From: Candidatus Binatia bacterium
GTDB lineage: Bacteria; Desulfobacterota; Binatia; UBA12015
Reading direction: 5' to 3'
Length of the DNA stretch: 64,000 nucleotides
NCBI GenBank assembly: GCA_029248525.1
Contig: JAQWJE010000027.1
Span: forward strand, 62,001-126,000
Both the position numbers and the translations under genes were made by a program. The stretch's first letter is position 1; every line of letters starts with the position of its first letter. The notes beneath the pieces were generated by a model. The model worked only from the letters and a program-made list of their open reading frames with translations, was not told the DNA's origin and ran no database searches. Shown here in pieces: positions 1,945-47,738 of the stretch.

Positions 1945-1956
1945 AGATCTATCGCC

Positions 1957-3210
1957 TCACGCCGTTTCGGCGGTCTTCTGGTAAAGCACGATGGGGTGCT
2001 CGTGGTTCGTGATGACTTCTTCGGAAATCACAACTTCCTTGATATTGGGCTCGGAGGGGATGTCGTACATGATGTCCAGCATCATGGCCTCCATGATCGC
2101 GCGCAAGCCGCGCGCCCCGGACTTCCGCTCCAGCGCTTCGTTGGCAATCGCACGCAGGGCGCCATCGGTGAACTTCAGGTTCACATTCTCCATCTCGAAG
2201 AGCTTCGCGTACTGCTTGGTCAGAGCATTTTTGGGCTCCTGCAGAATCTGCACAAGAGCATCGGCATCCAACTCTGTCAGCGTGGCGATCATCGGCAGAC
2301 GACCGACAAACTCCGGGATCAATCCGAACTTCAACAAATCGCCCGTCTGTGAATCCGGCAGGACCTCGCTATTGCTGCGCGAGTCACGGCTCTTCAAATC
2401 CACACCGAAGCCGACCTTCTTCAAACCGGCTCGGCGCCGAATCAGATCCTCGAGGCCGACAAACGCGCCCCCGCAGATGAAGAGGATATTGGTCGTATCC
2501 ACCTGCAGAAATTCCTGCTGGGGGTGCTTGCGTCCGCCCTTGGGCGGGACTGCGGCGGTGGTACCCTCGATGATCTTCAGCAGAGCCTGCTGCACACCCT
2601 CGCCTGACACATCGCGGGTGATCGACGGGTTATCTCCCTTGCGGGCGATCTTGTCGATCTCGTCGATATAGACGATACCCCGTTGGCATTTTTCGACGTC
2701 ATAATCCGCATTCTGCAGCAGAGACAGGATGATATTCTCGACGTCTTCGCCCACATAGCCCGCTTCCGTCAACGAGGTCGCATCGGCGATGGCAAAGGGA
2801 ACTTGCAGGAATCTGGCCAGGGTCTGGGCCAACAGTGTCTTGCCCGACCCGGTGGGCCCGATCAGCAGGATATTGGATTTCTGTAGCTCGACGTCACCGG
2901 ACACCAGCTGCGAATCGATTCGCTTGTAGTGGTTATGAACCGCTACGGCGAGAATCTTCTTGGCATGCTCCTGACCGATGACGTACTGGTCGAGCACTTT
3001 CTTGATTTCCGCGGGCTTGGGGACAGCGGACCCGGCGGCAATGCTCTCTTCCTGGTCGCATTCCTCCGCGATGATATCGTTGCATAAATCGATACATTCA
3101 TCGCAGATATAAACCGTAGGCCCAGCGATAAGCTTCCGGACTTCGTCCTGACTTTTGCCGCAGAAGGAACAAACGAGGTTCCCAGATCTATCGTCGCCGT
3201 GTTTCGCCAT
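1957..3210 (-). CDS. clpX: ClpX, ATPase subunit of the ClpXP protease
   Basis: ClpX is the AAA+ unfoldase that feeds substrates to ClpP. The 417-residue length is normal for the family. An N-terminal C4 zinc finger is visible (Cys14, Cys17, Cys36, Cys39), followed by Walker A GPTGSGKT near residue 118, Walker B around DEIDKI, and the pore region [10 protein letters not shown]. The ATG lies 8 nt after the clpP stop, which indicates co-transcription and probably translational coupling. No defects were seen. Confidence 0.98.
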
Positions 3211-3218
3211 AAGCTATC

Positions 3219-3818
3219 CTAGTTTTTCTTGGAATTGCGCGCGGCAATCACCTCATCGACCAAGCCATACTCCACGGCATGCTCGCTGGTCATAAAGAAA
3301 TCGCGGTCTGTATCCTTCTCGATCCGCTTCATGCTCTGTCCGGTATGGCCGGACAGAATCTGATTGAGCTGTTCACGAACCCGAAGAATTTCGCGCGCTT
3401 GAATGTCAATGTCGGTCGCCTGCCCCTGAGCTCCACCAAGCGGTTGGTGGATCATGATGCGTGCGTAGGGGAGGGCAAATCTTTTTCCCTTTTCGCCAGC
3501 GGTGAGCAGCAGGGCTCCCATGCTCGCGGCCTGTCCGAGACAGAGGGTCGAAACGGATGGGCGGATGTATTGCATCGTATCGTAGATCGCGAGGCCTGCG
3601 GAGACCGAGCCACCCGGGGAATTGATGTAGAAGTGAATATCTTTCTCAGGGTCCTCGGACTCCAGAAAAAGCAGCTGAGCGATGATGACGTTCGCTATAT
3701 CGTCCGTCACCTGAGTTCCCAGAAAAACGATCCGGTCCTTGAGCAATCGGGAGTAAATATCGTAGGCGCGCTCGCCTCTTCCGGTCTGCTCCACGACCAT
3801 CGGTATCAGGTTGTTCAT
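3219..3818 (-). CDS. clpP: ClpP, proteolytic subunit of the Clp protease
   Basis: ClpP is the self-compartmentalised serine peptidase that partners ClpX. The 199-residue protein shows the catalytic triad: Ser99 in GQAASMG, His124 in MIHQPLGG, and an Asp in the DTDRDFF region near residue 173. The substrate-binding NSPGGSV motif is near residue 66. The gene sits 81 nt after the trigger factor stop and 8 nt before clpX, the classical order. The start agrees with the family length and includes the usual short propeptide region. Confidence 0.98.
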
Positions 3819-3899
3819 TGGATGCTGATCCTTACTTGTGCTGCGTCCATCATCATAATCTTAGACCTATCTACAAATCTGAGCAACGCCAAGAGCGCG

Positions 3900-5183
3900 T
3901 CAGTTTGCTGCCTCAGTGATTTCGGCGCCTGCGACCAATTTCTGAAGCGTTTGCGAGCGCTGCAATTGCCCTCGCAAAGATTCGCTGTTGTTGGGATCTG
4001 CGAAATACTCGCGGGCTCGGTCGGCCTGCTCGCCTGCAGATTCCACAATCTTGGAGACTTCGGCGGCGAGCGCTTCCTCGTCAACCTCGATCGACAACTG
4101 CTCGGCGAGGTGCTCGAGCAGGATATTGGCTCGGACTTCACGTTCCGCCCGCGGACGCAGCTTCTCGCGAGCCTCGTCTTCATGCTCTCCCGCGTTCAGC
4201 CTCATCCCCTGCTGGGCCAGCTCCATCGAGAACTCCCGGAGCAACGCATCCACACGACCGTCGACCATCCCTCCCGGCGCCAGGAACTCGGTTCGCTCGA
4301 GAACCATGTCGAGGATCGCTTCATTGACCGCCGCATCCGATTTGCGGACCGCTTCGCCTTCCAACTGACCCCGAATCTGCTCCCGCATGGCATCGAGGGA
4401 GTCGCAGTCCCCGTGATCCTTGGCAAATTCGTCGTCCAGATCAGGTGCCTTCTTCTCAGAGACGGACTTCACCTCGACTGCGTAGGAAACTGTTTTCTCC
4501 TTGAGCTCCTCGGGCGCACCCTGGGGTGCCGAAGTTTCTACCGTGAAAGTATCGCCGACCTTTGCATGCTCCAACTTTTCGTCGAGCGCTTCGGGGAGAT
4601 TTCCGCCCGCTACTTCGATAGTCCCGGCCTCGACGCAAAGAGCATCGACCTTGTCGCCGTCCACCGAAGCCTCGATGGAGATCGTCGCGTAGTCACCCCG
4701 CGCCAGATCCTTGCGATCCTCGACCGGGACGAGTTGGGAATGGCGCTCGCGAATCTGCTCGAGAACCTTCTCCACGTCCTCGTCCGATACCGCGGTCGAT
4801 GGCCGTTGGACGACCAATCCCTCGACGTTGACGTCCCCCAACTCCGGTCGGATCTCGACAGTCGCGGAAAATGTCAGCGCCTCGCCTTCCACAGGGGGTT
4901 CAAAATCCAATTTGGGTTCAGCGACGATCTCCAATTTGGATTCTTCCATAGCGAAAGAAAAACCCTCCTGAATCAGGCTCTGCGTCACCTGCCCGAGAAC
5001 GTCTTCCCCGTAATGCCGCTCCAGCACCGGCCGAGGGACTTTTCCCTTGCGAAACCCCTTGACCGCGGCGTGCCGCGAAACTTCGTCGTAAGCGCTCGCA
5101 AACTCGCTGGAAACACGATCTGCCGGAACCTCGACTACGAGCTTGCGCTCCACCGCACTGATTTCTTCAATTTCGAGCTTCAT
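3900..5183 (-). CDS. tig: Trigger factor, ribosome-associated chaperone and prolyl isomerase
   Basis: Trigger factor binds nascent chains at the ribosome exit tunnel. The protein is 427 residues and carries the N-terminal ribosome-binding signature GFRKGKVPRPVLE near residue 45, followed by the PPIase and C-terminal chaperone domains. The frame is open upstream to 5330, but those residues only read through a tRNA-Leu gene, so the ATG at 5183 is the real start. It heads the tig-clpP-clpX-lon block. The tRNA ends 24 nt upstream, so the two may share a transcript. Confidence 0.97.
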   Translation of the reverse strand: MKLEIEEISAVERKLVVEVPADRVSSEFASAYDEVSRHAAVKGFRKGKVPRPVLERHYGEDVLGQVTQSLIQEGFSFAMEESKLEIVAEPKLDFEPPVEGEALTFSATVEIRPELGDVNVEGLVVQRPSTAVSDEDVEKVLEQIRERHSQLVPVEDRKDLARGDYATISIEASVDGDKVDALCVEAGTIEVAGGNLPEALDEKLEHAKVGDTFTVETSAPQGAPEELKEKTVSYAVEVKSVSEKKAPDLDDEFAKDHGDCDSLDAMREQIRGQLEGEAVRKSDAAVNEAILDMVLERTEFLAPGGMVDGRVDALLREFSMELAQQGMRLNAGEHEDEAREKLRPRAEREVRANILLEHLAEQLSIEVDEEALAAEVSKIVESAGEQADRAREYFADPNNSESLRGQLQRSQTLQKLVAGAEITEAAN

Positions 5184-5207
5184 GATCCCCACTTTTCCTG
5201 TTGAAAA

Positions 5208-5287
5208 TGCGAGAGGGGGGACTCGAACCCCCACGGTTGCCCGCTGGATCCTAAATCCAGTGCGTCTGCCAATTCCGCCACTCTCGC
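5208..5287 (-). tRNA. tRNA-Leu (anticodon TAG)
   Basis: The minus strand folds as a cloverleaf: acceptor GCGAGAG paired with CTCTCGC, anticodon arm CTGGA-TTTAGGA-TCCAG giving anticodon TAG, a short class II variable arm, and the T arm GGGGG-TTCGAGT-CCCCC. The discriminator is A and no CCA is encoded. It lies immediately upstream of tig in the same orientation. Confidence 0.95.
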
Positions 5288-5401
5288 CGAACCTTCCTGC
5301 TACCACCTCGTTCTGCGAACCGCATTTCAAGCCGATACCGGCTACACGGAATGAGGCGGCGAACCCCTCCTGCTGCTACAATTGGAAAGGGTGAACAAAC
5401 C

Positions 5402-6106
5402 ATGCGGATCGGGATTCTCAAGACAGACAGCGTTCTTCCCGAACTTTCTCAGCAATTCGGGGATTATCCGGAGATGTTTTCCGAGCTTCTTCGCGGAGCC
5501 GAGCCCTCTCTCGAGGTTTCGGTTTGGGATATGGTCGCCCGAGAGAGGCCCGCGAAGCTCGACGACTGCGACGGCTGGCTGATCACCGGGAGCCGGCACA
5601 GTGTCTATGAGGATCTGCCCTGGATTCGGGATCTGGAGAGCCTGATCCGCGAAATCCATGAATCTCGACGCAAACTGGTTGCGATCTGCTTCGGTCATCA
5701 GCTGGTGGCGCAGGTTCTCGGGGGCCGCACGGGTGCTGCTGCTCGGGGCTGGACCATAGGCGTCCAAACTATGGAACCAATGAATATCATTGGTGAAAAC
5801 GGTTTATTTAGTGCTCCTCGCCGCGTGATTCACAGCCACCAGGATCAGGTACTCGAGCTGCCCCCCGGTGCTCGTCTCCTCGCGGGCAATGAGGCTTGTC
5901 CGCGCGGCGTTTTTCAAATCGGCGAGCATATTCTGGCGATTCAGGGCCATCCGGAGTTTCGGCCCGACTATGCTCGAGCACTCTACACCCGTCGTCGGAA
6001 GATTTTGGGCGAGGAAAACTACAGTCGCGCCGTCGATTCGCTGCAGGGAGGCGATGACGCGGCCGCGATCGCGAATGCGATGATCGACTTCCTGAAAAAG
6101 CCCTGA
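5402..6106 (+). CDS. Class I glutamine amidotransferase (GATase1), stand-alone
   Basis: This is a 234-residue class I glutamine amidotransferase related to the glutaminase half of GMP synthase. The nucleophile elbow is AICFGHQL with Cys96, and the catalytic His lies in IQGHPEF, followed by the region that normally carries Glu. No synthetase or ATP-pyrophosphatase domain follows, so the amide acceptor is unknown. Such stand-alone proteins are often named GuaA-like, and some act as gamma-glutamyl hydrolases. The ATG at 5402 has GGAAAGGGTGAACAAACC upstream; an earlier in-frame start at 5351 has no better support. It converges on the dioxygenase gene, which ends one base away. Confidence 0.85.
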   Translation: MRIGILKTDSVLPELSQQFGDYPEMFSELLRGAEPSLEVSVWDMVARERPAKLDDCDGWLITGSRHSVYEDLPWIRDLESLIREIHESRRKLVAICFGHQLVAQVLGGRTGAAARGWTIGVQTMEPMNIIGENGLFSAPRRVIHSHQDQVLELPPGARLLAGNEACPRGVFQIGEHILAIQGHPEFRPDYARALYTRRRKILGEENYSRAVDSLQGGDDAAAIANAMIDFLKKP

Positions 6107-6928
6107 TCAGGAGGGCTTTTCACCCTCGATCGTCACCCGCTCATGAAGGCGATGCGCCGGCCAATAGTCGTTGATCGGGCAATGCTGCGTCTGCCGATTA
6201 TCCCAGAAAGCGATCGAATCAGGGCGCCAGGAAAAGCGAACCTGAAACTCGGGCCGCTCCAAATGGGCAAACAGGAACCCGAGAATCTTCTCGCTCTCCC
6301 GCGGAGAAACCCCCACAATTCTCTTTGTAAACAGAGAGTTGACAAATAACAGACGCCGGCCGCTTACGGGGTGCGTGCAGACCACCGGATGCTGGACCGG
6401 GGGATAGGCGCGCACCGCCTCCGCGAGTCGTTCCTCGCCGCCGGGGGCCTCCAGACTCTCCCGAAACCCGTGCACAAAGCTGTGTTCGGCGGCGAACGTG
6501 AGCAAGCGCGTCTGCCAGTCGGAAGGGAGAGCATCGTAGGCGGCTCCCAAACTCATCCAGAGCGTATCCCCGCCCCGGGCCGGAACGATCCGGGCACGCA
6601 AGATCGAACCGAGAGGCGGATTCGGCAAAAAAGTCATATCCGTATGCCATTTTTCGATCCGCGAGGGATTTTCGCGATCGGACTCGAGGACCGTGATTCC
6701 GGGATAACCCGGCACGGTCGGGTAGGCCGCGTGGGGACGGGCCGGACCAAAATATTCGGCCAGACGGAGATGATCCGCCGGTTCGAGGGCTTGATCGCGA
6801 AAAAACAAGACCTGATGCTCCACCAGTCCCGCTGCAAGCACCGCGCGCTCCTCGCCGCTCAGCACCCGGGTGAGATCGATGCCGCCAACCTCGGCCCCGA
6901 GGGCTGTGGAAATTCGCTGAAACTCCAT
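6107..6928 (-). CDS. TauD/TfdA family Fe(II)/2-oxoglutarate dioxygenase
   Basis: The 273-residue protein belongs to the TauD/TfdA family of non-haem iron, 2-oxoglutarate-dependent oxygenases. The iron triad is visible as WHTDMTF (His and Asp) and a distal His in the HRLHERVTI segment, whose Arg residues would hold 2-oxoglutarate. The substrate (taurine, a phenoxyacetate, an alkyl sulfate or another small acid) cannot be read from the sequence. I chose the ATG at 6928, which begins [19 protein letters not shown] as in typical family members, over the longer frame to 6970. Confidence 0.9.
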
Positions 6929-7064
6929 GTCACGGAAGTCTAGCGAATCTGCGACCCAACGCGAAGGCACCGGCGCTGCGAGAACGACCCGGATTTGTTA
7001 CCCAGAAAAGCAAGGTGCAGGTACCCCCCCGGTGCCCACCGAAGACAGGCAAGGAGACAATCAT

Positions 7065-8114
7065 ATGCGCAGTCCAAAGCACTTTTTCGAACCGATGGCG
7101 GTGGGAGCCCCCGCCCCCCTGCGGGCGATTCCCGTCACTCCATCTCGGATGATCCACTTCTTTGACCCGAGCAACCCGCGAATGGCCGAGAAAGTGCCCT
7201 CGATTGCTGCGAAGGTCGACGTCATTCTGGGAAATCTGGAAGACGCGATTCCCATTGACCGGAAAGAAGCTGCCCGTGAGGGCCTCGTCACGATCGGGCA
7301 AGCCACCGATTTCGGCTCGACCCAACTTTGGACGCGCGTCAACAGCCTCGATTCCCCCTGGTTTCTGGATGATGTCGTACGCCTCGTCGAATCGATTGGA
7401 GACAAGCTGGACGTCATCATGGTGCCAAAGGTCGAGGGTCCCTGGGATATTCATTATGTGGACCGACTCCTCGGACAACTCGAAGCGCGCGCCAAGCTGC
7501 AACGCCCCATTCTGATCCATGCGATTCTCGAAACGGCGATGGGTGTCGCCAACGTCGACGAAATCTGCGCGGCCAGCCCTCGCCTGCAAGGCCTCTCGTT
7601 GGGCCCCGCCGACCTCGCAGCTTCGCGTCGCATGAAAACCACCCGCGTGGGCGGGGGCCATCCGGGTTATATCGTGCGAACCGATCCCGATCCCGAAAAT
7701 GCCGACGCCGCCCGACCCTCTGTGCAGCAGGATTTGTGGCACTATACGCTCGCGCGAATGGTCGATGCCTGCAACGCCAACGGTGTCCTGCCCTTTTACG
7801 GGCCCTTCGGTGATATTTCCGATTCCATTGGCTGTGAAGACCAGTTCCGCAACGCCTTCCTTCTGGGATGTGTCGGCGCCTGGTCGCTCCACCCCGGGCA
7901 GATCGATATTGCCCGCAAGGTATTCACGCCACCTCTCGACGAGGTGCTCTGGGCCAAGCGAGTCATCGAGGAAATGGGCGACGGCAGTGGCACAGTCATG
8001 ATCGACGGCAAGATGCAGGACGATGCCACCTACAAACAATGCGTCGTCATCGTCGAATTAGCCAAAATGCTCGCCGGCCGCGACCCGGATCTCGCTGCCG
8101 CCTACGGCTTCTGA
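7065..8114 (+). CDS. HpcH/HpaI aldolase / citrate lyase family protein (malyl-CoA lyase-like)
   Basis: The 349-residue protein has the CitE/HpcH-HpaI TIM-barrel fold, which cleaves or forms C-C bonds in CoA thioesters such as malyl-CoA or beta-methylmalyl-CoA. Family features include [16 protein letters not shown] near residue 60 (metal-binding Asp and neighbouring residues), the ETAMG segment with a conserved Glu, [10 protein letters not shown], and the C-terminal [12 protein letters not shown] region. The start is set by a clear AAGGAG Shine-Dalgarno 8 nt before the ATG. A strong hairpin terminator follows. The exact CoA substrate is not determined. Confidence 0.88.
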
Positions 8115-29274: not shown

Positions 29275-30832
29275 TTGCTCTTCCCGACGCTCATCTTTGC
29301 CGCGTTCCTCCTGATCGTCCTGGCCGGGGATCGGCTGCTGCCCGGGAAGATGCGCACAGGCTGGCTTCTGACAGCCAGTCTGATCTTCTACTCCCTCTAG
29401 ATTCCGCAGTATCTCCTGCTCCTGCTCTTCAACATCGGAGTCAATTACTTTTTTCTCTGCCGCATGAGGCGTCAACAAGACAAAAGCGCTGGACGACCGG
29501 GGAGCGGCCGCGCGTGGCTGATCGCATCTTTGGTGTTTACTCTCTCCATTCTGGCGACATTCAAATATGCCGCCTTTCTCCAGGGTGCCCTGCTTCCCTT
29601 CACCACAATTCTCGCCGCGGGTCCCCTGCCGCTATCAGACCTCCTTCTGCCTCTGGGGATCTCTTTTTATTCCTTTCAGCTGATTGGCTTGCATGTCGAT
29701 ATCTATCGAGGCGCCGCCTACTTTCGCCCGCTATGCGCTTTTCGTCAGCTTTTTTCCGCAATTGATCGCCGGGCGAATTCTGCGCGGACAGGAGTTCCTG
29801 CCTCAGTTAACAGCGTCTGCCCGGATCACCACCGAGAAAAATCGACGCGGCATCTGGTTGATCGCATCCGGTTTGCCGAAAAAAGTCATCCTTGGAGATT
29901 TCCTCTTCGCGCCGCTCGTGGAACCGATTTTCGCCGATCCGGGTATCACAAGCGGACCGCTTCATTTACTCGCGATCTACGCTTTTGCCTTCCAGATCTA
30001 TTTCGACTTTTCGGGCTATACCGATATGGCCCGCGGCATCGCTCGGCTGCTTGGATTCGAGTTCCCCAAGAACTTCGAGGAACCCCATCTTTCCAGAAAC
30101 CCCACTGAATTTTGGCGCCGTTGGCAGATCACCCCGTCCCGATGGCTGCGCGATTATCTTTATATCCCTCTGGGCGGCAACCGGGGTGGGAGTTTCCGAA
30201 GCGGCAGCAACCTTCTGATCACGATACTGATGGGCGGGTTATGGCATGGCGCTGGTTGGAACTTCCTTCTTTGGGGTGGAATGCACGGGGTCCTGCTCGC
30301 TCTCCACCGCCCCCTGCGCGACACGGCACACGCGACCTCGCCCGGCCAGGTGCGGGACTGGTGGCGCATTCTGCTTTGCTTCCATGCGGTCACTTTTCTT
30401 TGGATATTTTTCCGTGCCAAGACACTGAATGATGCATGGTTGATGATCGAGGGGACGATCTCCGGATCATGGAATGGGCCCCTGCCCTTCTGGGGCATGA
30501 TTTTGATTTTCGCGGCCATGCTGATGCATTTCGCCGAGCGGTGGATTCGAAATCGCGCAGCGAAATTCCGAGAACAAGCGGCCGGGATTGTCGGCGGCGC
30601 TCAGGAAGGCTGCCTGCTCGGACTGCTTCTGGTTCTGGTGATCGCCGCCAGCGGTCGCGGCGGCGAATTTCTCGACTTGCATCGAACACTTCCCGACCGG
30701 GCCTTCCGCGACAGCCGGGATCATATCAATTTTCGGGATTCCGCAGATCCCACGGCCCGGATGGCTAAACCGATGCTCGATTGGCTGCTGCGCCGGGGCC
30801 GCTCCGTCGACCTTCCGTCGGATCCCAGCTAA
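29275..30832 (+). pseudogene. MBOAT/AlgI-like O-acyltransferase, broken by a stop and a frameshift
   Basis: Conceptual translation gives a membrane-bound O-acyltransferase of the AlgI/DltB type. The first part (from a TTG at 29275) reads FNIGVNYFFLCRMRRQ and LLPLGISFYSFQLIGLHVDIYRG. It is interrupted by TAG at 29398-29400, probably a mutated Trp codon (SLIFYSL-stop-IPQYL). Near 29715-29730 the reading moves to the next frame, where ARYALFVSFFPQLIAG, DFSGYTDMARGIA, NPTEFWRRWQI and the catalytic-His region GLWHGAGWNF continue intact. Either the gene is a recent pseudogene or the assembly carries errors. AlgI-type enzymes acetylate exopolysaccharides with a separate acetylesterase partner, which is not adjacent. 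Confidence 0.8.
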
Positions 30833-36782: not shown

Positions 36783-37142
36783 TCAGCTGCCTCTGCCGCT
36801 CGCGTACCAGGCGATGAATGCGTTGACGACCAGCAGGAAAGCGGCGGGCAGGATCTCGAAGACCGGATCATTTACGCGGACTCGGGCTCCGACCCCAAGC
36901 AACATCAAGAGCGCCAGTCCGCCGGCAGCCCAGGGAACCAAAGGCGGGTAGAAGTAGCCTACAATCAGGCCCAGAGCTCCCAGAACTTCCAGACTGCCCG
37001 TAAGGCGCCGGAAGTCCGCGAGCCCGAATCTCCGAAATTCCTCAACCATCGCGTCGGCAAACAGGCAGCTGAGCCCATAAAAGAGGAAAAGAGTCAGCGA
37101 CAAAACTTTCGCCACTTGGTAGATGGACTCGACAGACGGCAT
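36783..37142 (-). CDS. DoxX-like membrane protein, divergent partner A
   Basis: The 119-residue protein has four membrane segments, FGLADFRRLTGSLEVLGALGL near residue 35, and a charged N-terminus MPSVESIYQVAKVLS. I take the ATG at 37142; the frame is open further but leads into the promoter of the opposite gene. It is divergent from a second 119-residue DoxX-like gene 58 nt away. Function unknown. Confidence 0.75.
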   Translation of the reverse strand: MPSVESIYQVAKVLSLTLFLFYGLSCLFADAMVEEFRRFGLADFRRLTGSLEVLGALGLIVGYFYPPLVPWAAGGLALLMLLGVGARVRVNDPVFEILPAAFLLVVNAFIAWYASGRGS

Positions 37143-37200
37143 TTTCAAGCTAGATTGTAGACGGTTCCACGCGTACCGCACCCCAAGGAGTGTTTTTTTT

Positions 37201-37560
37201 ATGATTTCAATACTTTTGCAGTTTATTGTCGGCGCCGGCCTGCTCAATGTCTGGTTGCTTCGAGCCCAAAACCCCACAGCATACCGCGGTGGCGGCGCAC
37301 AATCGCTGCAGGAAGAATTCGCCACCTACGGGCTCCCTGACTGGTTTTTTTATTTGATCGGGTTCCTGAAGATCGGCTCGGCGCTTTTGCTGTTGGGCGG
37401 CATCGCCCTTCCCAGCCTCGTCCAACCCGGAGCCAGCATCGTGGTCGGGCTGATGCTCGGAGCGATTGCGATGCATCTAAAGGTCGGCGACGAGCCGATG
37501 AAATCGCTGCCTGCCGCACTCATGCTCGGGATGAGTCTCGCGATTCTCTATCTGAACTAG
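37201..37560 (+). CDS. DoxX-like membrane protein, divergent partner B
   Basis: The 119-residue protein has four membrane segments and the parallel motif YGLPDWFFYLIGFLKIGSALLL near residue 46. A Shine-Dalgarno AAGGAG lies before a run of eight T residues that abuts the ATG at 37201. It is the same length as partner A and has similar layout, so the two are probably paralogues from an old duplication and inversion. Function unknown. Confidence 0.75.
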   Translation: MISILLQFIVGAGLLNVWLLRAQNPTAYRGGGAQSLQEEFATYGLPDWFFYLIGFLKIGSALLLLGGIALPSLVQPGASIVVGLMLGAIAMHLKVGDEPMKSLPAALMLGMSLAILYLN

Positions 37561-38069
37561 ACACTCGAGATCGCCCGAGGGGGTCGTGCCACCGACCCCG
37601 GGCCAAAATGAAGAACAACCGCAGCGCATGAGCGAGCAGTGGGAACTCTGCGAGGCCGGAAGGGATTGGGCAGCCGACACAGGGGCTATGAGAGTACCTC
37701 GTTCCGGGTACGGATCCATCTCGACCTCCACCGTCCGCATGCACGCGACACCACCGCGCCGATCCATAGCTACCGCTGCATCGTCGCCCGCCACCGCAGC
37801 CTGATCGATGGCCGCACGCGTCGTTGAGGATCGCGTCCCTGAGTCCCGCATCCGCCCACGGTATCCGCTTGAAGTTATCCATTCGTAAGACGCTCTCGGC
37901 AGGGGGCATCTACCAAGCTTGATCCGGCCAAGCGTCACGACGACGCATACGCTTTCTGATTCGGCGTGGCGGAGTCCTTGATGTTTGCGGATACGAGAAA
38001 GCGTTTGCCGTAGACTCTGTAGTGCAACGAACGATTTACGCCGAAAACAAAAAATAAACGCGGAAAAAC
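37561..38069. other. Long intergenic stretch without a convincing gene
   Basis: Several short overlapping frames occur on both strands but none has a recognised fold, a good ribosome binding site or consistent codon pattern. The last 60 nt before 38070 are A-rich (AAAACAAAAAATAAACG) and probably hold the promoter of the esterase gene. Nothing else seen. Confidence 0.5.
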
Positions 38070-39524
38070 ATGCGCTTGAACCGGGCGCTACTGTTAGAAC
38101 ACGTGAGTGTGAAGAAAAAATTGCATTTCATTTCGCTGATGTTCGGAGTTCTGGCTTTGCTTGACGCAGCCCATGCGGCTCCGCTGGCCGCGCAGTCGAG
38201 CTCCGGGGACTACGCCCGATCGATTGTCTTCGATGGGCGGACCCGCACCTACAATGTTCACGTGCCTTCGAGTTATGTTGCGGGCTCTGCAGTGCCGCTG
38301 GTCATGGATTTTCATGGCTATACTTCGAACAGCAATGCACAAGCCTCCCTGTCGGGGTTTCGTCAAGTTTCGGACGCAGAAAATTTCATCGTCGCGTACC
38401 CACAAGGTGTCGGCAATTCGTGGAATGCAGCGACGTTTTGTTGCGGTGAGGCTTTGGCTGGCAGGGTCGACGATGTGGGTTTGGCGGTAGCCATCGTTGA
38501 TGCAATTTCGGCCGAGTTCACGGTGGACTCCGAACGAGTCTACGCCACGGGGCTCTCGAATGGGGGCGCTCTCGCGCATCGGCTCGCCTGTGAGGCCAGT
38601 GAAGTCTTCGCGGCAACGGCACCTGTGGCTTTTCCGCTGGGAATTCTCCCGCTCAGCGCCTGCCAGCCATCTCGACCGATCACGGTGGCCCACTTTCACG
38701 GCCTGGGGGATTCCACCGTTCCCTACGAAGGCACGTTCTGGGCACCCGCATCACAAGCAAGCTTTGCAAGTTGGGCTGAGAAAAATCAGTGCGAAGGTTC
38801 GCCAGTCGTAGATGGGCCCTGCGAGACTTTCACGCAGTGTGCCGAGGGAGTGGAGACGACATTATGCAGCCTGAACGGCGGCCATATCATCTACTCCAAT
38901 TCAAATAACTTCTCGATTGCGTCGTCTGCGTGGAACATCCTCTCTCGATTCACGCTCTCCCCAGATCAGCCGGACGAAGCAACTCCTGTGGCCGGCAATA
39001 GCCTTCTCATCAAGGACAAGACCGACACTACGCGGCGCAAGATCGTTCTCTCCCTCAAAGATCCGACGATTGACACGTCCCCCGGATCGGGCATCAACCC
39101 AGCCTTGGACGGTCTGCGGGTGCAGTTCTACAATGCCGCAGATGGCAACGACGTTGCCTGCTTCGACCTTCCGGCGGGGAATGCATGGCGCCAAAACGGT
39201 CCGATCACCGGGCCCACTTACAACTACCGAGATTCGCAGGCTGAATTCGGGCCTTGCCGCTCGGTGACCATCAGCGATGGTCAGCAACTGCGCATCACGT
39301 GCACCGGTCGCCGCGCACCGATTTCCTACTCTCTCGATGAACCCGCGCAGGAGGCTGTCGCCGTAAGAGTCGAAAGCGGTGATACGAATTATTGTGCAAT
39401 TTTCGGCGGCATCGTCATCAGTGATTCGGGCATCGACCCACTGAGCCCCCGGGGCAAGGGTCTCTTCAAGGCAAAGCTCGCGCCATCACCCGCATCCTGT
39501 CCACCCGCACCGCCGTGCGCCTAG
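38070..39524 (+). CDS. Secreted PHB-depolymerase/feruloyl-esterase-like hydrolase with C-terminal beta domain
   Basis: The 484-residue exported protein begins with a signal peptide (KKKLHFISLMFGVLALLDAAHA). The catalytic domain resembles LpqC/PHB depolymerase esterases: VPLVMDFHGYTSNS near residue 72, the nucleophile elbow YATGLSNGGALAH, and a His in NGGHIIYS. Residues 305-484 form a separate beta-rich, Cys-containing domain with SLLIKDKTDTTRRKIVLSLKD and a terminal proline-rich tail, probably a carbohydrate- or surface-binding module. The start could also be a GTG at 38103. Confidence 0.8.
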   Translation: MRLNRALLLEHVSVKKKLHFISLMFGVLALLDAAHAAPLAAQSSSGDYARSIVFDGRTRTYNVHVPSSYVAGSAVPLVMDFHGYTSNSNAQASLSGFRQVSDAENFIVAYPQGVGNSWNAATFCCGEALAGRVDDVGLAVAIVDAISAEFTVDSERVYATGLSNGGALAHRLACEASEVFAATAPVAFPLGILPLSACQPSRPITVAHFHGLGDSTVPYEGTFWAPASQASFASWAEKNQCEGSPVVDGPCETFTQCAEGVETTLCSLNGGHIIYSNSNNFSIASSAWNILSRFTLSPDQPDEATPVAGNSLLIKDKTDTTRRKIVLSLKDPTIDTSPGSGINPALDGLRVQFYNAADGNDVACFDLPAGNAWRQNGPITGPTYNYRDSQAEFGPCRSVTISDGQQLRITCTGRRAPISYSLDEPAQEAVAVRVESGDTNYCAIFGGIVISDSGIDPLSPRGKGLFKAKLAPSPASCPPAPPCA

Positions 39525-39906
39525 CCAGCTGACGGCCGCCGGTCGGGTGCACGGTCTGGCCCTGTCTCTCCCGGCCAGCGGCGTTGGTGCTCCAACCCGT
39601 GCGACCGGAGGCGGAGCGCCAAGTGAAATGCGCCACCTCGATGACAGAGCGTGGAACTGCATGAAGAATCCTGAATGCTCGTCGTCATCGGCCCGCGCCT
39701 TCTCTGGTCGGTCGGGCTGGAGCAGATGGTCGCATTCCGAGACAGGGCGCGCCAACGTTCGAGATTGAGTCTGCCTGACACAGGAAAACCGGCAGAGTTG
39801 GGGTGGGGTAGCGCTTCGGCGTGCAAGACTCGGCCGAGATTCGGATTGACCTATCAGGGTCGTTGAGGCGAAAGAGCCCTCCTGCCGCCTGCGTTGACGG
39901 AGGGCT
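39525..39906. other. Intergenic stretch between convergent genes
   Basis: No supported gene was found between the esterase stop and the stop of the chimeric gene. The only structured element is the hairpin at 39876-39905. Short frames here are shadows. Confidence 0.5.
39876..39905 (-). terminator. Hairpin after the AraC/adhesin chimera
   Basis: GCCCTCC and GGAGGGC form a 7-bp stem around a 16-nt loop, directly after the minus-strand stop codon at 39907, followed by TCTTT on the minus strand. It fits a weak intrinsic terminator. Confidence 0.4.
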
Positions 39907-41610
39907 TCATGGACAGAGTTCATCGACCCCGCTGCAGAGGTGAGCTGTGCTGCCGCTGACGGTGGAGCCATATCCGGCCGCTTGGTTCTTCGTGCCGCCG
40001 CTGACTGTGGCCAAGGTTCCCGAAGCGTCATTCTCCCGACCCCCGTTGGCCGAGGAGTAGGCGCCATTTGCCTGATTTATGAAGCCTCCGTTGACGGTAG
40101 AATTCCGCCCCCGTGCAACGTTTCCTTCTCCGCCATTGGCCGACGAATAAAGCCCCTCGGCCCGGTTTCCATCTCCGCCATTCGCCGATGAATTTTCACC
40201 GTCGGCACGATTGAGCTCGCCGCCATTCACCGCTGCATTTTCGCCTGCAGCAATATTGTTCAGGCCGCCATTCACGGCCGCATATTTAGCCGAAGCTCTA
40301 TTCTTACGGCCACCACCAACCGAGGATCCAAGCCTGGAGGCAGAATTGTCTGTTCCGCCCACGACCGACGAGAACTCACCAGCCGCCAAATTTCCCGACC
40401 CTGCAGTAATGGAACTCATGAGACCCGAAGCTCTATTACCGGCACCAGTCAGGACAACCGCGAACTCTTCCGTAATGTCGTTGGAAGTTCCACCGATCAA
40501 GCCAGCAAAACTGCTATAGAAATTGTCGACACCAAACACGACATTATGTGAGCCACTCTTGGGTGAGCGCTGATCACTCGGTGGTGGTCGGTTGTCTTCG
40601 TCGTAACCAACGATCAGATTCCCGCGACCATTGATCGTATCCGTGCTGCCGCGCCCGTTGACTATCTGAACGTTCACTTGTGTGAACCGAACAGTCTCGC
40701 TTTGACCATCGCCATCGTTGTCGACCAGAGTCATGCGGTCCAGAATTGCCAACTCTTCGCTGGAAACGATGGCAACATATTTACCGGTGCATACCGGATA
40801 GAGCTTCAGCGTTCGCCGAGGTACACCCAGAGTTAGTGCGAGAGCGCTGACAGAGCGCAGCTCCAAATTTGCATCGAATGTCGCGCCGGCTCGTTCGACC
40901 AGTGCGGCGTCCGCCCGCGACGGAGGGTTCCGCGGGTGAATGCGGTCGTCCAGGAGTTCCAGAATTTCGCTCAAGATGATGGCCTGAACTTCGTCGGCCC
41001 GAAGTTCGCTGCTGCCTGCAAGGCCCCGACGGAGAATCTCCCCCAACTCGTGGCGCACATGAGCTGTTTTTTCCGGGCAGCACGCCAGCCAACGGCTGGT
41101 GCGGTTGGGTCGGAACACGTCATCGATATGCTCTCTCAGGCCCATCGCTTCGGCGGCAGCTTCCAGCTTGCTGCGCTCGATAAAGACAGCCAGAACCGGC
41201 GGGCCGGACTGGGTTTTCTGATGGAGCATTTCTCCGGGGATCAGAGTGGGGATTTCGAAAGTTGAGCGGCTCCCATGTGCATGGCCCCACCAGAGACACT
41301 GGCTGTCGAGAGCTGGCAGGCCGATGCCGACCTGGTCGGCACGAAGCGCCCCCTGATTGAACGCGGCCGCGAAGTATCGAAAGCTGCCAAGAATCGATTC
41401 GCATGCCGCCAGACTCAGGAGCTCCGAGTTGAATTCACCGGAAGCCAGCTGGAATTGCTCGTAATCAAACAGACCCTTGAAGGCCTGATTTCCCTCTTCG
41501 AGGTTCTTTGAGAAAACTCGATGGCAAATAGGGAGTTCCGGCTGCCCGGCGAGTGGGGCTGGGGTGTTCGATTCGGAGCCGATTCCAATCATCGACTCGA
41601 CTTTACGCAA
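39907..41610 (-). CDS. Chimeric ORF: AraC-type regulator N-terminus fused to YadA-head-like repeats
   Basis: The 567-residue frame joins two unrelated parts. Residues 1 to about 268 look like the ligand-binding part of an AraC-family regulator (FDYEQFQLASGEF, AVFIERSKLE) and the first helix of its DNA-binding domain (LRSVSALALTLGVPRRTL), which then stops. From about residue 270 the sequence is that of a surface adhesin: VNGRGSTDTINGRGNLIVGYDE and then about 14 repeats of the form SSANGGxxNxAxG, as in trimeric autotransporter heads. No signal peptide and no anchor are present. The join near 40800 is most easily explained by an in-frame deletion. It may be a relic of two broken genes, so expression is doubtful. 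Confidence 0.7.
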   Translation of the reverse strand: MRKVESMIGIGSESNTPAPLAGQPELPICHRVFSKNLEEGNQAFKGLFDYEQFQLASGEFNSELLSLAACESILGSFRYFAAAFNQGALRADQVGIGLPALDSQCLWWGHAHGSRSTFEIPTLIPGEMLHQKTQSGPPVLAVFIERSKLEAAAEAMGLREHIDDVFRPNRTSRWLACCPEKTAHVRHELGEILRRGLAGSSELRADEVQAIILSEILELLDDRIHPRNPPSRADAALVERAGATFDANLELRSVSALALTLGVPRRTLKLYPVCTGKYVAIVSSEELAILDRMTLVDNDGDGQSETVRFTQVNVQIVNGRGSTDTINGRGNLIVGYDEDNRPPPSDQRSPKSGSHNVVFGVDNFYSSFAGLIGGTSNDITEEFAVVLTGAGNRASGLMSSITAGSGNLAAGEFSSVVGGTDNSASRLGSSVGGGRKNRASAKYAAVNGGLNNIAAGENAAVNGGELNRADGENSSANGGDGNRAEGLYSSANGGEGNVARGRNSTVNGGFINQANGAYSSANGGRENDASGTLATVSGGTKNQAAGYGSTVSGSTAHLCSGVDELCP

Positions 41611-41818
41611 AGGTTGACCCGTGGGAAAGAGTCAAAAAGCCCGACCGAAATAAAGGTATTCGTCCACACCCCTGAGACGCGCGGATCCTTCTGGCCCAGA
41701 TGCTCTTCGATAGCTGCCAGGACGACTTCGGGGCCGGACGGGCGCGTCCTTGCAGGAAGGACAATTCCCGCTGCGCGGATGCCATGCCAGCGAGCTGGAC
41801 GCGCAAAATGACGGCGAT

Positions 41819-43063
41819 TCAGGTTCGACTATGGAAGGGCCCACTGATTTCATAGGTGATTCCGAGGGTGTTGGAGATGTCATCGGTGGGACCGAGTTGA
41901 GAGCTCAGGTAGAGGCGGTTGCCAGAGGGATCAAAGGCAGGCCCCGTGATTTCGGACAGCGGGTGTTCGATGATCTCGCAGATTGGTTGCGCCCCGCCGT
42001 CGGTGCGCACCAGGCAGAGTTCCATGTTTCCGCCATCTTCCGCGACAAGGATTTCACCGAATTGGGAGACCGTCACATTGTCGACGCCTGTCAATACTGG
42101 AGACGGTGAGGTCAGTGGGTCATAGAGAATTCCGATCGTGTCGGAACGCAGGTCGAGTTGCCAGATGCGGTTGTCTGTCTTGGTTGAAAAGACCACCAGA
42201 CCCTCGTGGTACCAGATCCCTTCTCCGCCAATGAAGGGCGTGCTTTCGGGGATTTGGTGGCGCGTGGGGGTTTCTCCGGTGAATTCGGGGTCGGGAAGTT
42301 CGTGCCAGACAATGGCGCCCGATTCGCCCTCCACGATGCGCGCGACATCGATGGAGCCCGTTGTCAGATCCGGTTGCCCAAAGCGGTTCCTCGACCGGGG
42401 TCTGTATCGATAGAGCCGACCGTCCGGTTGGTCTTCGGTCATGTAGATGTTGCCCGTTGCCGGATCGACCGCAGCCGCTTCATGTTTGAAGACCCCGAGG
42501 CTCTTGCGTAAAATGGCGGGGCGCCGCCCTGTGGGGTCGCACTCCCAGACAACGCCAACATCCCATTCTTCGCACGATAGCCACGTTCCCCATGGCGTCA
42601 GGCCCCCGGCGCAGTTCAGGAGAGTTTCCTCCTCAAGGATGGGATAGGCATCGACGATTTCGCCGGATGACGAGAAGCGCAAGGCGCCAACCCCTCCGGG
42701 AATGGCCTCGGAGTTCGACACATAGATCCATCCACCATCCCCGGTCGGGAAGGTGGCACCTCCGTCCGGCAACAGCGGCCAGAGATAGTCCGAGGAAGTT
42801 GTGGGCGGCTCACCGCTTCGAGCGACGACTCGAGATTGGAATCCCAGGGGTAGGCGCACCCCGTTTTCGTCCGGGGCTCCGAGGGGGCCGAGATCCGCGA
42901 TCAAACCGGACGAGTTTGCGCTGGAGGAGCCGCCGCATCCGGACAGTGAATTTCCGGCGAGAAACAAACCCAGGCCGCCGAGTGTGGCCTGCAAAAATTG
43001 CCGCCGACTGCTGGATATCGGTTCGAGGCCGGAAGCCGGCCGGCCAATTATTTTGGATGCCAT
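41819..43063 (-). CDS. PhoX-family (DUF839) Tat-exported protein
   Basis: The 414-residue protein starts with a twin-arginine signal SSRRQFLQATLGGLGLFLAG and a Cys-Gly-Gly segment near residue 43. The body has the PhoX/DUF839 propeller with LLNCAGGLTPWGTWLSCEEW near residue 150, VFKHEAAAVDPATGNIYMTED and GVDNVTVSQFGEILVAEDG. PhoX proteins are Ca/Fe-dependent phosphatases, but many DUF839 relatives have no proven phosphatase activity. Exported to the periplasm by Tat. No Pho box was checked. Confidence 0.86.
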   Translation of the reverse strand: MASKIIGRPASGLEPISSSRRQFLQATLGGLGLFLAGNSLSGCGGSSSANSSGLIADLGPLGAPDENGVRLPLGFQSRVVARSGEPPTTSSDYLWPLLPDGGATFPTGDGGWIYVSNSEAIPGGVGALRFSSSGEIVDAYPILEEETLLNCAGGLTPWGTWLSCEEWDVGVVWECDPTGRRPAILRKSLGVFKHEAAAVDPATGNIYMTEDQPDGRLYRYRPRSRNRFGQPDLTTGSIDVARIVEGESGAIVWHELPDPEFTGETPTRHQIPESTPFIGGEGIWYHEGLVVFSTKTDNRIWQLDLRSDTIGILYDPLTSPSPVLTGVDNVTVSQFGEILVAEDGGNMELCLVRTDGGAQPICEIIEHPLSEITGPAFDPSGNRLYLSSQLGPTDDISNTLGITYEISGPFHSRT

Positions 43064-43248
43064 TGGTCGGACCTATCGCTGAACCCCTCTGTGATCAAGT
43101 AATCTTTCGGATGACCGCATGATTGCGTCGATCACCCCGAATTCAGCACGATTCCAGCCTCTCGCTTGCACATTTCGGTTTGTCGAGGGCTGGCCTGCTG
43201 GTTGCGAGATGAAGTGATTTTTCTACCGTAAAGGGGTACGCTCACGGC

Positions 43249-44556
43249 ATGCCAAGACCGACAGCCTTGCGGCGTATCTTGTTCGCGGCTCTGGGCGTTT
43301 TCCTGGCGGGAGCGGTGGTGGTCGCGGTCCGCGCGCAGAAAATATCGAACCGCCTGTCGCAGGTGGCCTCGAAAGAACCCTTTGTGGACGCGACGTCGTG
43401 GAAGGTTGCCTCTCTTCGCGAATTGCCCCTGATCCTTCCCGATTCAGTGCAGGAACTTGGCCGCGTTGCCTGGGAGGGGGTGGGGTCGCCAATTGCCTTT
43501 GATGCAAAGGGCTCACGCGACACGAAATTCGATGTCTATCTGGTAGCGGCGGAAGGCGGAGTCGCCGAGTGTTTGACGTGTGAGGTGCCCTGGCTCGCAG
43601 GGCGAAATGTGGGCAATCCGGCCTGGGGCCCCGATGGCCGTTTTCTGCTTTTGCAGATCGAAAACCAGACAGCGATCCCGGAGGACTTGGAGCTATCGCC
43701 TCTGATCGCCGATCCGAGCTACCCGGGGTTCGGCCTTTCGAGCTCGCTCTGGGTCTATGACTCGGCTCGAGGGGACTTCCACCTTCTCTTTGAAATCGAT
43801 GGGGACAACGGGTGGGGGACCTTGCACCCGCACTTCTCGCACGACGGGCGTCAGGTTACCTGGACGCGAGTGACCAGCGACGTTGGCTGCCTTGGCTCGA
43901 TGCAGGTGATGGTAGGCGATTTTCTCGCCGAGCCGGTGCCCCGTTTGCAGAACATCCGGGGCTTGCAGTCGGCTGCCAGTGGGCCGGGGTCATTTTTCGA
44001 AACGCAGGACTTTCGCTCAGGCGAAATTCTGACAGCCTGCGCTCCGGTACCTGATCAGCAACACCATTTCATGGATTTATGTCGTCTGGACTCGCATACG
44101 GACAGATTGACCCGGCTAACCGACCGATCCGGGATGGCTGGTGAGACAGGGTCCTGGGAAGAGCATGCGAAATACATCGGAGACAGCGAGGTGCTTTTTG
44201 TTTCTTCGCGGGGGTATCCGAACCCCGTGGAGTCCTGCGATATGCGCAGCGCTTCGTTCATTAAATGGTTGAAGACCTATCTATACGTTGCGGACACTCG
44301 CACGCCCGGGGCAGCTGCCGAGCGTCTGACCTTCTGGAACGAACCGGGTCACCCCGATTTCTGCGATTGTGGCAATGCCCTGGCCTCGGATTTCTCCTGG
44401 AATCAGGAGCGATCCGCGGCGGTGGTCTTTGTGCAGTTCCTGAATTGGCCGAGGTACCTGCCGATCCCGGTCGGCTTTGAAGCGCGATACTATATTTTGG
44501 AGTTGGACCGTTTACCCGAGAGGCCCGATCAGAGTTCGAAGCTGACCGGAAGGTAG
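43249..44556 (+). CDS. Exported TolB/WD40-like propeller protein of unknown function
   Basis: The 435-residue protein has an N-terminal membrane segment (RILFAALGVFLAGAVVVAV). A six- or seven-bladed propeller of the WD40-like PD40 type follows, for example NPAWGPDGRFLLLQIE and HPHFSHDGRQVTWTR. Cys pairs (CLTC, CDMRS, CDCG) suggest disulfides or metal sites outside the cytoplasm. It is probably anchored in the inner membrane and faces the periplasm. No enzyme motif was seen. Confidence 0.68.
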   Translation: MPRPTALRRILFAALGVFLAGAVVVAVRAQKISNRLSQVASKEPFVDATSWKVASLRELPLILPDSVQELGRVAWEGVGSPIAFDAKGSRDTKFDVYLVAAEGGVAECLTCEVPWLAGRNVGNPAWGPDGRFLLLQIENQTAIPEDLELSPLIADPSYPGFGLSSSLWVYDSARGDFHLLFEIDGDNGWGTLHPHFSHDGRQVTWTRVTSDVGCLGSMQVMVGDFLAEPVPRLQNIRGLQSAASGPGSFFETQDFRSGEILTACAPVPDQQHHFMDLCRLDSHTDRLTRLTDRSGMAGETGSWEEHAKYIGDSEVLFVSSRGYPNPVESCDMRSASFIKWLKTYLYVADTRTPGAAAERLTFWNEPGHPDFCDCGNALASDFSWNQERSAAVVFVQFLNWPRYLPIPVGFEARYYILELDRLPERPDQSSKLTGR

Positions 44557-44754
44557 GCTCGGGAGGGGTTTTGCAGCGAGTCGGGGTCTCCGCCTCCCGG
44601 AGTCTCGACCCATTGAATTCGGGGGCTCTATTCGTCCCTTCCGATTCTGCTGCCGGCTGCGTTTACCGCGCTTCCCGCCCGTGGAGACCGCCGCACGCAA
44701 TAGAAGGATAGGCCGATGGTTTCAGTGCATTGAAGTATCTTTTGAAAACTCCGG

Positions 44755-45621
44755 TTAGGGTTTCCTGCATCGAAAAATATCGACCGGATGAGGCAGACTT
44801 GTTGTCGTACCTTTCTCTTCGCTGATCGACATCAAGAATTCGGAAATGTCGTTGCGCAACCCTGTCGGCAATTGATCGGCTCGGGTTTGCACGATGAAGT
44901 CCACAATGTTTCGACCTTCTTCGGTTGATTCGCCGAAACATTCGTTCGCATTCAGATTGGCGCTAACGCGCGTTTCACAATATTCCAAGTCACGCGCATC
45001 CAAGTGGGCTCGTACGTCATCGCTGAACCAACTTTTTTGTTCCATTTGGCGTTGCCACATCAGATTAGCAATGATGTTCAGTTCTTCGTCAGGGGCAATC
45101 ATGATGACCAATTCCCCACCAGGTTTCAGTGCTCGTAGTGCGGCATCGATAGCATCATTGCGATCTTCCAAATAGTAGATGGATTGCACAAAAAGAATGA
45201 GGTCGAACGTGTTTTCAAAGGTTTGCTCGCCAAACTTTTGCACGAGAACGGCAACCTCGACTTGATTAGATTTTTGAGAACCCATTGTTTGTAAAAATTC
45301 AGCAGCCGCTATTTCGTTTGGCTCAATGCCGAGATACGACACTTGGTTCATTCGCGCCCGGGCATATCCCAAAATGTGCTCGTCAAAAGCACCTGTGCCA
45401 CAGCCAACACTCAAAATAGCATTAGTGTCTTGCGACATTCTCGAGACAACGTTGGCTTTGAGCCAACCCAGGAGCCCCAACCGTTGATCGCTATTGGCTT
45501 CAAAAATTTCGAGACATTTGGCGTAATAACTATTAGCTAAGGGATCTATCTGCTTTAGACCTGTTACCGCACGGTCAATTGACGTGATCATCTTGCTTTG
45601 ATGTGACGTGTATAAACTCAT
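44755..45621 (-). CDS. Histamine N-methyltransferase-like SAM methyltransferase
   Basis: The 288-residue protein has SAM motif I ILSVGCGTGAFDEHIL near residue 70, IEPNEIAAAEF and LILFVQSIYYLEDRNDAI. Its C-terminal part (NECFGESTEEGRNIVDFI, then LPTGLRNDISEFL) mirrors the animal histamine N-methyltransferase ending (CFIDGNENGDLLWDF, PPDLRAELGKDL). HNMT methylates the imidazole N-tau. It is divergent from the second methyltransferase with a 183-nt shared promoter region. Local G+C is low. With an EgtD gene nearby, the likely substrate is a histidine derivative. Family match is moderate and from memory. Confidence 0.72.
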   Translation of the reverse strand: MSLYTSHQSKMITSIDRAVTGLKQIDPLANSYYAKCLEIFEANSDQRLGLLGWLKANVVSRMSQDTNAILSVGCGTGAFDEHILGYARARMNQVSYLGIEPNEIAAAEFLQTMGSQKSNQVEVAVLVQKFGEQTFENTFDLILFVQSIYYLEDRNDAIDAALRALKPGGELVIMIAPDEELNIIANLMWQRQMEQKSWFSDDVRAHLDARDLEYCETRVSANLNANECFGESTEEGRNIVDFIVQTRADQLPTGLRNDISEFLMSISEEKGTTTSLPHPVDIFRCRKP

Positions 45622-45804
45622 AGATGAACCAATGAACTCCTGAAGTCAGCGCTTATGCGCAGAGACACGATCGGATTAGCGAACGATGGAGTACCCTAAC
45701 AGAGTTTCCCGGAAGGTTTTGGGGGTCTTGTCGAGCTTCTCACGTTCGAATAGCGGGTATCTTCCGATAACGACACCAAGAATCCAGCAAATTGGAGCCA
45801 AGCC

Positions 45805-46713
45805 ATGAATCGATCCCTTCCCGCCGCCACAGACGCCGACACCTTTGATCGGAGTTGCGCTCACTGGAGCGCTGACGGTCGTGAGGGTATGGACAACTTT
45901 TACACCTATGCGACTGTCGATTATCGACACTTGGCTGGCTTGATCGACTGGTCTGCTCTGCTGGCCTCCTTGTCGGAGCAAACAGGCGGTCTTCAATTGG
46001 CAGATCTGGCCTGCGGCAGCGGTAAGTTTCCAACCGCCCTGTTGGAACACACAACGCTACCTGAGTTGATGAGTGCTGAAGGCAGATCGACTCAAGTGCT
46101 GTACGACCTTTTGGATCCCAGCACCTTTGCGATCGAGGAAGCGGCAGCCGTGCTCAAGTCACCTTTTCTCGAACGTGATCGCTATTGCTGCAGACTGCAG
46201 GACTGGCAGCCAAAGCCCAGCACTTATGATCTCTGCTGGGCAACCCACGCACTTTATTGCGTGCCGGCCGCAGAGATGGGGGAATGCATGGCTATTTTGA
46301 AAGGTGCCATGAAGCCCGGCGGTATCGGCGTCGTGGCTCAGTCCAATCGCAGTGGGCACTATATTCGTTTCTATGAGCATTTCCTGGAAAGCATCCACGG
46401 TGGAAACGGCACGCGCTTCAGCGCCGCCGAAGATGTCGCTGAAGCGGCTGAAAATTCTCGTTTTGAGAGGCAAATTCGCACGCTCAATTATGAAACCGCC
46501 ATTGACGAAAACGATCACCAAGCACTCGAATCCTACCTACAGCGTTGCGCTTTTGATGATTCCATATCGTTGCATGAAATGATGAATAGCGGATCTCTGG
46601 GGCAATATTTAAAGAACGCCAAAAGCCGAGGAGCCTATCGTTTTCAGCAATCTGTTGACGTTGTCGTGTTCGGGAATGATCTATCCTCATTTAATTTTTG
46701 GATGCAAGAATAG
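45805..46713 (+). CDS. Class I SAM-dependent methyltransferase
   Basis: The 302-residue methyltransferase has motif I LADLACGSGKFPTALLEH near residue 65, a WATHALYCVPAAEMGE motif near 149, and LKGAMKPGGIGVVAQSN. The ATG at 45805 has GGAGCCAAGCC before it. The stop TAG overlaps the GTG start of the next gene by one base (TAGTG), a sign of translational coupling. It sits in the low-G+C five-gene group with EgtD and a PhyH oxygenase. The substrate is unknown; a histidine-derived intermediate is my inference. Confidence 0.78.
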   Translation: MNRSLPAATDADTFDRSCAHWSADGREGMDNFYTYATVDYRHLAGLIDWSALLASLSEQTGGLQLADLACGSGKFPTALLEHTTLPELMSAEGRSTQVLYDLLDPSTFAIEEAAAVLKSPFLERDRYCCRLQDWQPKPSTYDLCWATHALYCVPAAEMGECMAILKGAMKPGGIGVVAQSNRSGHYIRFYEHFLESIHGGNGTRFSAAEDVAEAAENSRFERQIRTLNYETAIDENDHQALESYLQRCAFDDSISLHEMMNSGSLGQYLKNAKSRGAYRFQQSVDVVVFGNDLSSFNFWMQE

Positions 46714-47738
46714 TGAAAGAGCCTTCCAACTCCCAGCCCAAACCTCAGTCCTACGACTACTTGTCCAAGGCCCAACAGAAGAGCGAGGGCGTTGCATCGC
46801 AGTGGGACCAAGACAACCAGCAATGGTGGAATTGGTATATGACGCTCGCAGAGAACGAGCATGATCAAACGAATGCCGCCGCTAAGCCAGCGATCGCCGG
46901 TGTACAAGCGCCTATTGAAATTGACGAATCAACACTCGCGAAGATAGCGTCTGGTCTTTCAGCGCCCTACAAATTGTCTTCGGCTTGCATTAGTCAGTTC
47001 GCCAAAGATGGCTACATCAAACTTAAAAACGTCATCGACCCCGAGCATTTAACTCTGCTCAGACAGCGTATTAACAGCATCTTAATTGACACCCTGGGAG
47101 CCGAGCCTGAATTGGCTTTTCGAAGTGACGAGATGATGTGGCTTCACGACGAACTCGTGCGACATTTCGTTTTGAGCAAACGCATCGCGCAAATTGCGAG
47201 CGAGCTCTTGGGTGTTCAAGCGGTCCGTCTCTATCACGACAATGCGTTATCAAAAGAGCCTGGCTGCGGGCGCACACCTTGGCACTATGACTATCATCAC
47301 TTTCCCATCGACAGTCTAAATGTCTGTACCGCTTGGATTCCATTGCAACCTATTCCAAGGGAAATGGGACCGCTTGCATTTGCAGCGGGCATGGAAACTT
47401 ACAAACTTGTTAAAGACCTGCCTTTTAACAAGTTCGACTCAAGCTATGACAAGCAGCTGAGCCAAATCTTCGCGGATAAACATGTTCCTGTAGATGATAG
47501 CAGCTTCGATTTGGGCGAGATCAGCTTTCATCATTCGTTATCGTTTCATACGGCCGGTGCGAATAGGACTAACGAATCTCGTATGGCGTTAGCGACAACC
47601 TATTTTGAAGACGGTGCACATCTTGTCTCAAATCCAACTATGATCTCCGGGGAGTTTCACAAGTTTATGCCGGCAATCGAACCGGGCGATATCATCAACA
47701 GTGCATACAACCCCGTATGCCATCGACGTGCTGATTAA
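46713..47738 (+). CDS. Phytanoyl-CoA dioxygenase (PhyH) family oxygenase
   Basis: This 341-residue Fe(II)/2-oxoglutarate oxygenase has the HxD motif PWHYDYHHF, an early FAKDGYIKLKNVIDPEHL, and a distal His/Arg region with FHTAGANRTNESRMAL. The start is the GTG at 46713, which overlaps the previous stop codon; a TTG at 46698 is possible. PhyH-type enzymes hydroxylate small or CoA-linked acids in natural product and osmolyte pathways. In this cluster it probably hydroxylates or desaturates a methylated amino acid. It is followed 18 nt later by a transporter. Confidence 0.82.
   Translation: MKEPSNSQPKPQSYDYLSKAQQKSEGVASQWDQDNQQWWNWYMTLAENEHDQTNAAAKPAIAGVQAPIEIDESTLAKIASGLSAPYKLSSACISQFAKDGYIKLKNVIDPEHLTLLRQRINSILIDTLGAEPELAFRSDEMMWLHDELVRHFVLSKRIAQIASELLGVQAVRLYHDNALSKEPGCGRTPWHYDYHHFPIDSLNVCTAWIPLQPIPREMGPLAFAAGMETYKLVKDLPFNKFDSSYDKQLSQIFADKHVPVDDSSFDLGEISFHHSLSFHTAGANRTNESRMALATTYFEDGAHLVSNPTMISGEFHKFMPAIEPGDIINSAYNPVCHRRAD

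Follow-up and report, generated by a model that had tools for sequence, protein, structure and literature searches.

Deletion between short direct repeats is a form of illegitimate recombination and can fuse two genes. For AraC proteins and for exported adhesins, neither function should survive a truncation within the DNA-binding domain of the former and the loss of the export signal of the latter. The locus described here joins parts of two genes of these kinds. The window, i.e., the whole stretch of 64,000 nucleotides analyzed here (positions 62,001 to 126,000 of JAQWJE010000027.1 from a Candidatus Binatia bacterium), is part of contig C27 of assembly G000 (4.27 Mb, 59 contigs, 98.92% complete). 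Its minus-strand frame 39907-41610 was read as an ORF of 567 open codons with a likely ATG start at 41592, which yields a protein of 561 aa. An AraC-type regulator part is followed by a part resembling the head repeats of YadA/UspA1. The initial annotation had described an in-frame fusion of an AraC regulator with an adhesin and had placed the break within 40780-40820; the join was indeed located in this interval. The features are as follows.

40808..41592, minus strand: 5' part of the AraC-family regulator gene, residues 1-262 of 333 (ungapped alignment to sister contig L038, in register to residue 262)
40808..40814, minus strand: junction, 7-bp microhomology GAACGCT (L038 alignment ends at 40808, alignment to sister contig L069 starts at 40814)
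39907..40814, minus strand: 3' part of the YadA/UspA1-head-like repeat-protein gene, residue 47 of 347 to the stop (300 of 301 common residues are the same in the intact protein on L069; UspA1 match)
39982..40518, minus strand: array of about 15-residue repeats, residues ~359-537 of 561, limits approximate (11 regex hits)

Relatives of the regulator half were sought by scanning contigs with six short peptide patterns, an approach that reaches close relatives only. One relative was found: contig DLYX01000493.1 (L038) of the MAG 'Deltaproteobacteria bacterium isolate UBA12015'. This MAG (G147) belongs to the same species and is 63% complete; the contig is also contained in G147 as C96, and the compared stretch 4031-7596 was identical. 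L038 aligned without gaps from position 1 to 6315 with window 47122-40808 (6,315 bp, 97.9% identity), and the alignment ended there. Positions 1639-5828 of L069 (G147 contig C159) aligned, again without gaps, with window 40814-36625 (4,190 bp, 98.7%). The two alignments overlap by the 7 bp GAACGCT at 40808-40814. Since both parent genes read GAACGCT in the same frame, within Thr-Leu, the frame is preserved across the join. A common stretch of at least 7 bp is expected at a random junction with a probability of 4.7e-4 (formula) and was obtained in 96 of 200,000 sampled pairs. By chance, one join in three is in frame, and selection is not needed to account for it. Thus, when the two halves were searched separately in relatives, as the initial annotation had proposed, a genome of the same species was found to carry two whole, separate genes, with the break where it had been predicted.

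In the sister genome, the two genes are located on the separate contigs C96 and C159; read in the order of the window, the contigs keep order and strand. No contig bridging the two pieces was found in the 63%-complete G147 when this was attempted via the amidohydrolase gene; C96 and C159 are presumably adjacent in the sister. Past the join, L038 carries 1,281 bp with the last 71 regulator codons, a short ORF and the start of an Amidohydro_3 gene. L069 contributes 1,645 bp, counted to the last base of the 7-mer, with a Cys-rich ORF and the repeat gene's initial 46 codons. The sum of 2,926 bp missing from the window is a lower limit, as the sister contigs are unbridged. Both pieces were compared with the assembly of the window. 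The L038 piece (E up to 1) gave no close match among 8 places, namely places of 305 bp (70% identity), 285 bp (69%) and 135 bp, these three spanning 69-75%, and others of at most 46 bp; the 305- and 285-bp places are amidohydrolase-like frames. The L069 piece likewise gave no close match among 11 places, the best being 92 bp at 79%; 22 bp fell on the join itself, and the others were at most 40 bp long.

The intact sister regulator comprises 333 aa in a frame open for 346 codons, is 95% identical to the regulator half of the window across 262 residues, and contains a complete HTH_18 domain (63.5 bits, cut-off 33.6). The AraC-type identity of the regulator half is read solely from this HTH_18 match of the intact sister gene. 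In the window, the regulator is cut after Arg-Arg-Thr-Leu at residue 262 of 333, a position that we take to lie in the recognition helix of the first helix-turn-helix. Residues 247-279 of the intact sister protein match the AraC helix-turn-helix model PF00165, and because the cut falls inside this stretch, the fused frame has lost the remainder of the first helix-turn-helix together with the entire second one. The proposal that the second DNA-binding helix was lost exactly at the start of the array was thus correct as to the second helix-turn-helix, but the first is cut as well. The array, in turn, does not begin at the join as had been assumed: it is preceded by ~96 residues that belong to the N-terminal region of the repeat protein itself.

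A search of the whole genome with HTH_18 (E up to 1) returned four places, none within the fused gene, in which no complete domain with two helix-turn-helix motifs was found. Other AraC-type genes in this genome were considered as relatives of the regulator half and rejected for lack of a match; outside the fused gene, only two places were hit, at E 0.07 and 0.14. A PDB sequence search with the regulator half alone returned 0 matches at E up to 10. Among 148 genomes of the class, the regulator half was matched at E <1e-160 in two, this one and the sister. Two further genomes gave weak partial hits (E 7.9e-4 and 0.007); these hits, in G134 and G113, were disregarded as short or partial. Apart from this genome, three of 395 genomes of the phylum contained distant relatives with open frames of 358-370 codons (E up to 1e-12).

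The intact sister repeat protein on L069 has 347 aa and begins with the hydrophobic sequence MKRMTSVLRFMVMATTLIVFALAGAPANA, which, judged by eye, appears export-signal-like. This start is present only in the intact sister gene, in agreement with the earlier observation that the fused frame lacks a signal. The same observation had been made for a membrane anchor, and no C-terminal anchor was matched by Pfam in the fused or the intact form (E up to 1 for the intact form). Since the intact sister protein also gave no such match, the missing anchor is not an effect of the deletion. Ten of the 11 regex hits of the array follow at a 15-residue step. In a phmmer search of PDB, the repeat half matched UspA1 chains (3pr7, E 1.7e-16; 3ntn, E 5.4e-6).

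Pfam gave no significant match for the fused protein or for either half; the sole hit was LbR_Ice_bind (E 1.1, 9.8 bits, cut-off 30). Arginyltransferase and LpxL, suggested by family scans at E 0.02-0.16, scored far below their own cut-offs and were taken as chance. An AlphaFold model of the fused protein, built on an alignment of two rows, had a mean pLDDT of 42.5, with residues 1-367 below 50, and showed the array as regular strands with block means of 71-86 across residues 411-540. When this model was used for a fold search in PDB, 0 of 65 matches reached E <=0.001. Of the model, only the regular strands of the array entered the interpretation.

Matches to the repeat half at E up to 0.001 were found in 25 of 145 class genomes including this one, which was the only one of the 145 in which both halves were matched. 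For 22 repeat-protein loci, three from this genome and one from each of 19 among the 24 other matching genomes, frames were read from stop to stop without a fixed start and scanned for hydropathy, which is not a signal-peptide prediction; L069, places L005-L008 of this genome and the pieces on C32 were not included in this count. A 12-residue stretch with a mean hydropathy of at least 1.9 was present upstream of the match in 21 of the 22 loci, the value for L031 being 1.5. Apparently, the class holds a broad family of exported repeat proteins. A W.AG motif was observed in the last 30 residues at 14 of these 22 loci (L015-L033 and the own-genome paralogs L002-L004). Moreover, fragments with 85-95% identity to the repeat-protein gene and the sequence after its stop (window 39578-39880) were observed at 166-802 of contig C32 in this assembly (L053) and at 1-44 of contig C206 in the sister (L052). 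These fragments appear to be a decayed second copy of the repeat-protein gene.

Taken together, the join is very probably an ordinary microhomology deletion scar that arose in this lineage and connected two genes. This reading had been offered by the initial annotation, and the intact, separate genes of the sister together with the break at the predicted place support it. The ancestor would have carried two separate minus-strand genes, one encoding an AraC-family regulator from the EutR/FeaR/AndR neighbourhood, the other encoding an exported repeat protein and located at least ~2.9 kb downstream. A deletion between two copies of GAACGCT in the lineage of the window would have joined regulator codon 262 to codon 48 of the repeat gene, in frame by chance. 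Slippage or end joining at the microhomology is the presumed route; translocation with loss of DNA may have occurred instead of a simple deletion. As to polarity, a fusion is unlikely to have split into two complete, typical genes, and among the genomes searched the fusion was present in this one alone. The product, if made, would be driven by the regulator's promoter and would be a cytoplasmic protein that retains the regulator's sensor region but has no working DNA-binding domain. Since the first helix-turn-helix is cut, the second is gone and the export signal is gone, it is probably non-functional. Most likely, the fusion is dead and both functions have been lost.

The join is seen in one assembly, and an assembly or binning artefact, with both genes whole in the organism, has to be weighed. 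The window comes from an assembly of 59 contigs, the join occurs in only one of the two genomes with the regulator half, and a second microhomology break, this one in the sister genome, lies only ~10 kb away. Assembler overlaps are longer than 7 bp, however, and the common stretch here is only 7 bp; the window contains 0 N, and both flanks are close to the sister, with 97.9% and 98.7% identity. If the join were false, the true continuations of both genes would be expected elsewhere in the assembly, and the absence of a close match to either in an assembly that is 98.9% complete speaks against it. An artefact is therefore considered improbable. Still less credence is given to a true, selected fusion, in which a cytoplasmic small-molecule-sensor domain would carry a beta-repeat array in place of its DNA-binding domain. 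No stop interrupts the frame in either half, and dN/dS of the repeat half between the strains is 0.047, but this ratio, taken between a fused and an unfused gene, may mostly reflect the time before the fusion. The fusion is confined to one genome while the sister has separate genes, the regulator half retains just part of the DNA-binding domain, and relatives of the repeat half look exported. For the earlier suggestion of a new repeat-bearing cytoplasmic protein, the open frame was the one point of support, and this reading was not retained as more than very improbable. If it were true, with the fused frame expressed and kept, the locus would represent an early stage of a new protein arising from one deletion.

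Between the window and the sister, dN/dS was 0.196 for the regulator half, compared with the low value for the repeat half, which derives from 7 synonymous changes and 1 nonsynonymous change. The regulator half had the highest dN (0.0233) and dS (0.119) of ten frames or parts measured. For eight neighbouring genes, dN/dS ranged from 0 to 0.543, with several values derived from a handful of changes, and both halves lie within this range. Neither half contained stops, and dN/dS gave no clear sign of decay. The stop-free frame fits a recent event and does not by itself prove loss of function. Across window 36783-47120, synonymous divergence from the sister varied from 0.006 in a PhoX-like gene (41819-43063) to the value given above for the regulator half. 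Such sharp change from gene to gene would be as expected of recombination mosaics.

In a comparison of a 20-kb stretch with G147, ~15.7 kb were aligned and the second break was seen. At window 30300-30620, the sister lacks 321 bp that are flanked by a direct repeat of 8 bp (CCTGCTCG). The break lies in a presumably MBOAT-like gene whose copy in the window, on visual inspection, seems to carry a frameshift. Deletions of this kind may occur often in this species; alternatively, one of the assemblies may be prone to this error.

The two strains provide a before-and-after pair in one species, with whole parent genes in one, the fused frame in the other and a join resolved to 7 bp, in a species known here from genome assemblies alone. 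Such pairs help to ask how often deletion yields in-frame chimeras, and whether chimeras persist. The case itself most likely shows the loss of two genes. The abstracts and titles surveyed contained nothing on this fusion.

Compared with described regulators, the intact sister protein was closest to the models of AndR (62.9 bits), EutR (49.8 bits, residues 113-332) and FeaR (40.0 bits), yet far below their equivalog cut-offs of 350, 319 and 199. The version in the window differs from this neighbourhood in that it has lost most of the DNA-binding domain. The repeat half is alike by sequence to UspA1 chains and thus to the head repeats of YadA/UspA1-type trimeric autotransporters, but neither the fused nor the intact form matched a Pfam head or anchor of YadA-like proteins at the limits used. 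As in other fusions by illegitimate recombination, two genes on the same strand are joined at a common sequence, here of 7 bp, and the intervening DNA is missing. There is no difference in kind, the size of the deletion being available here only as a lower limit. The locus is thus a clean example of fusion by deletion and not a new system.
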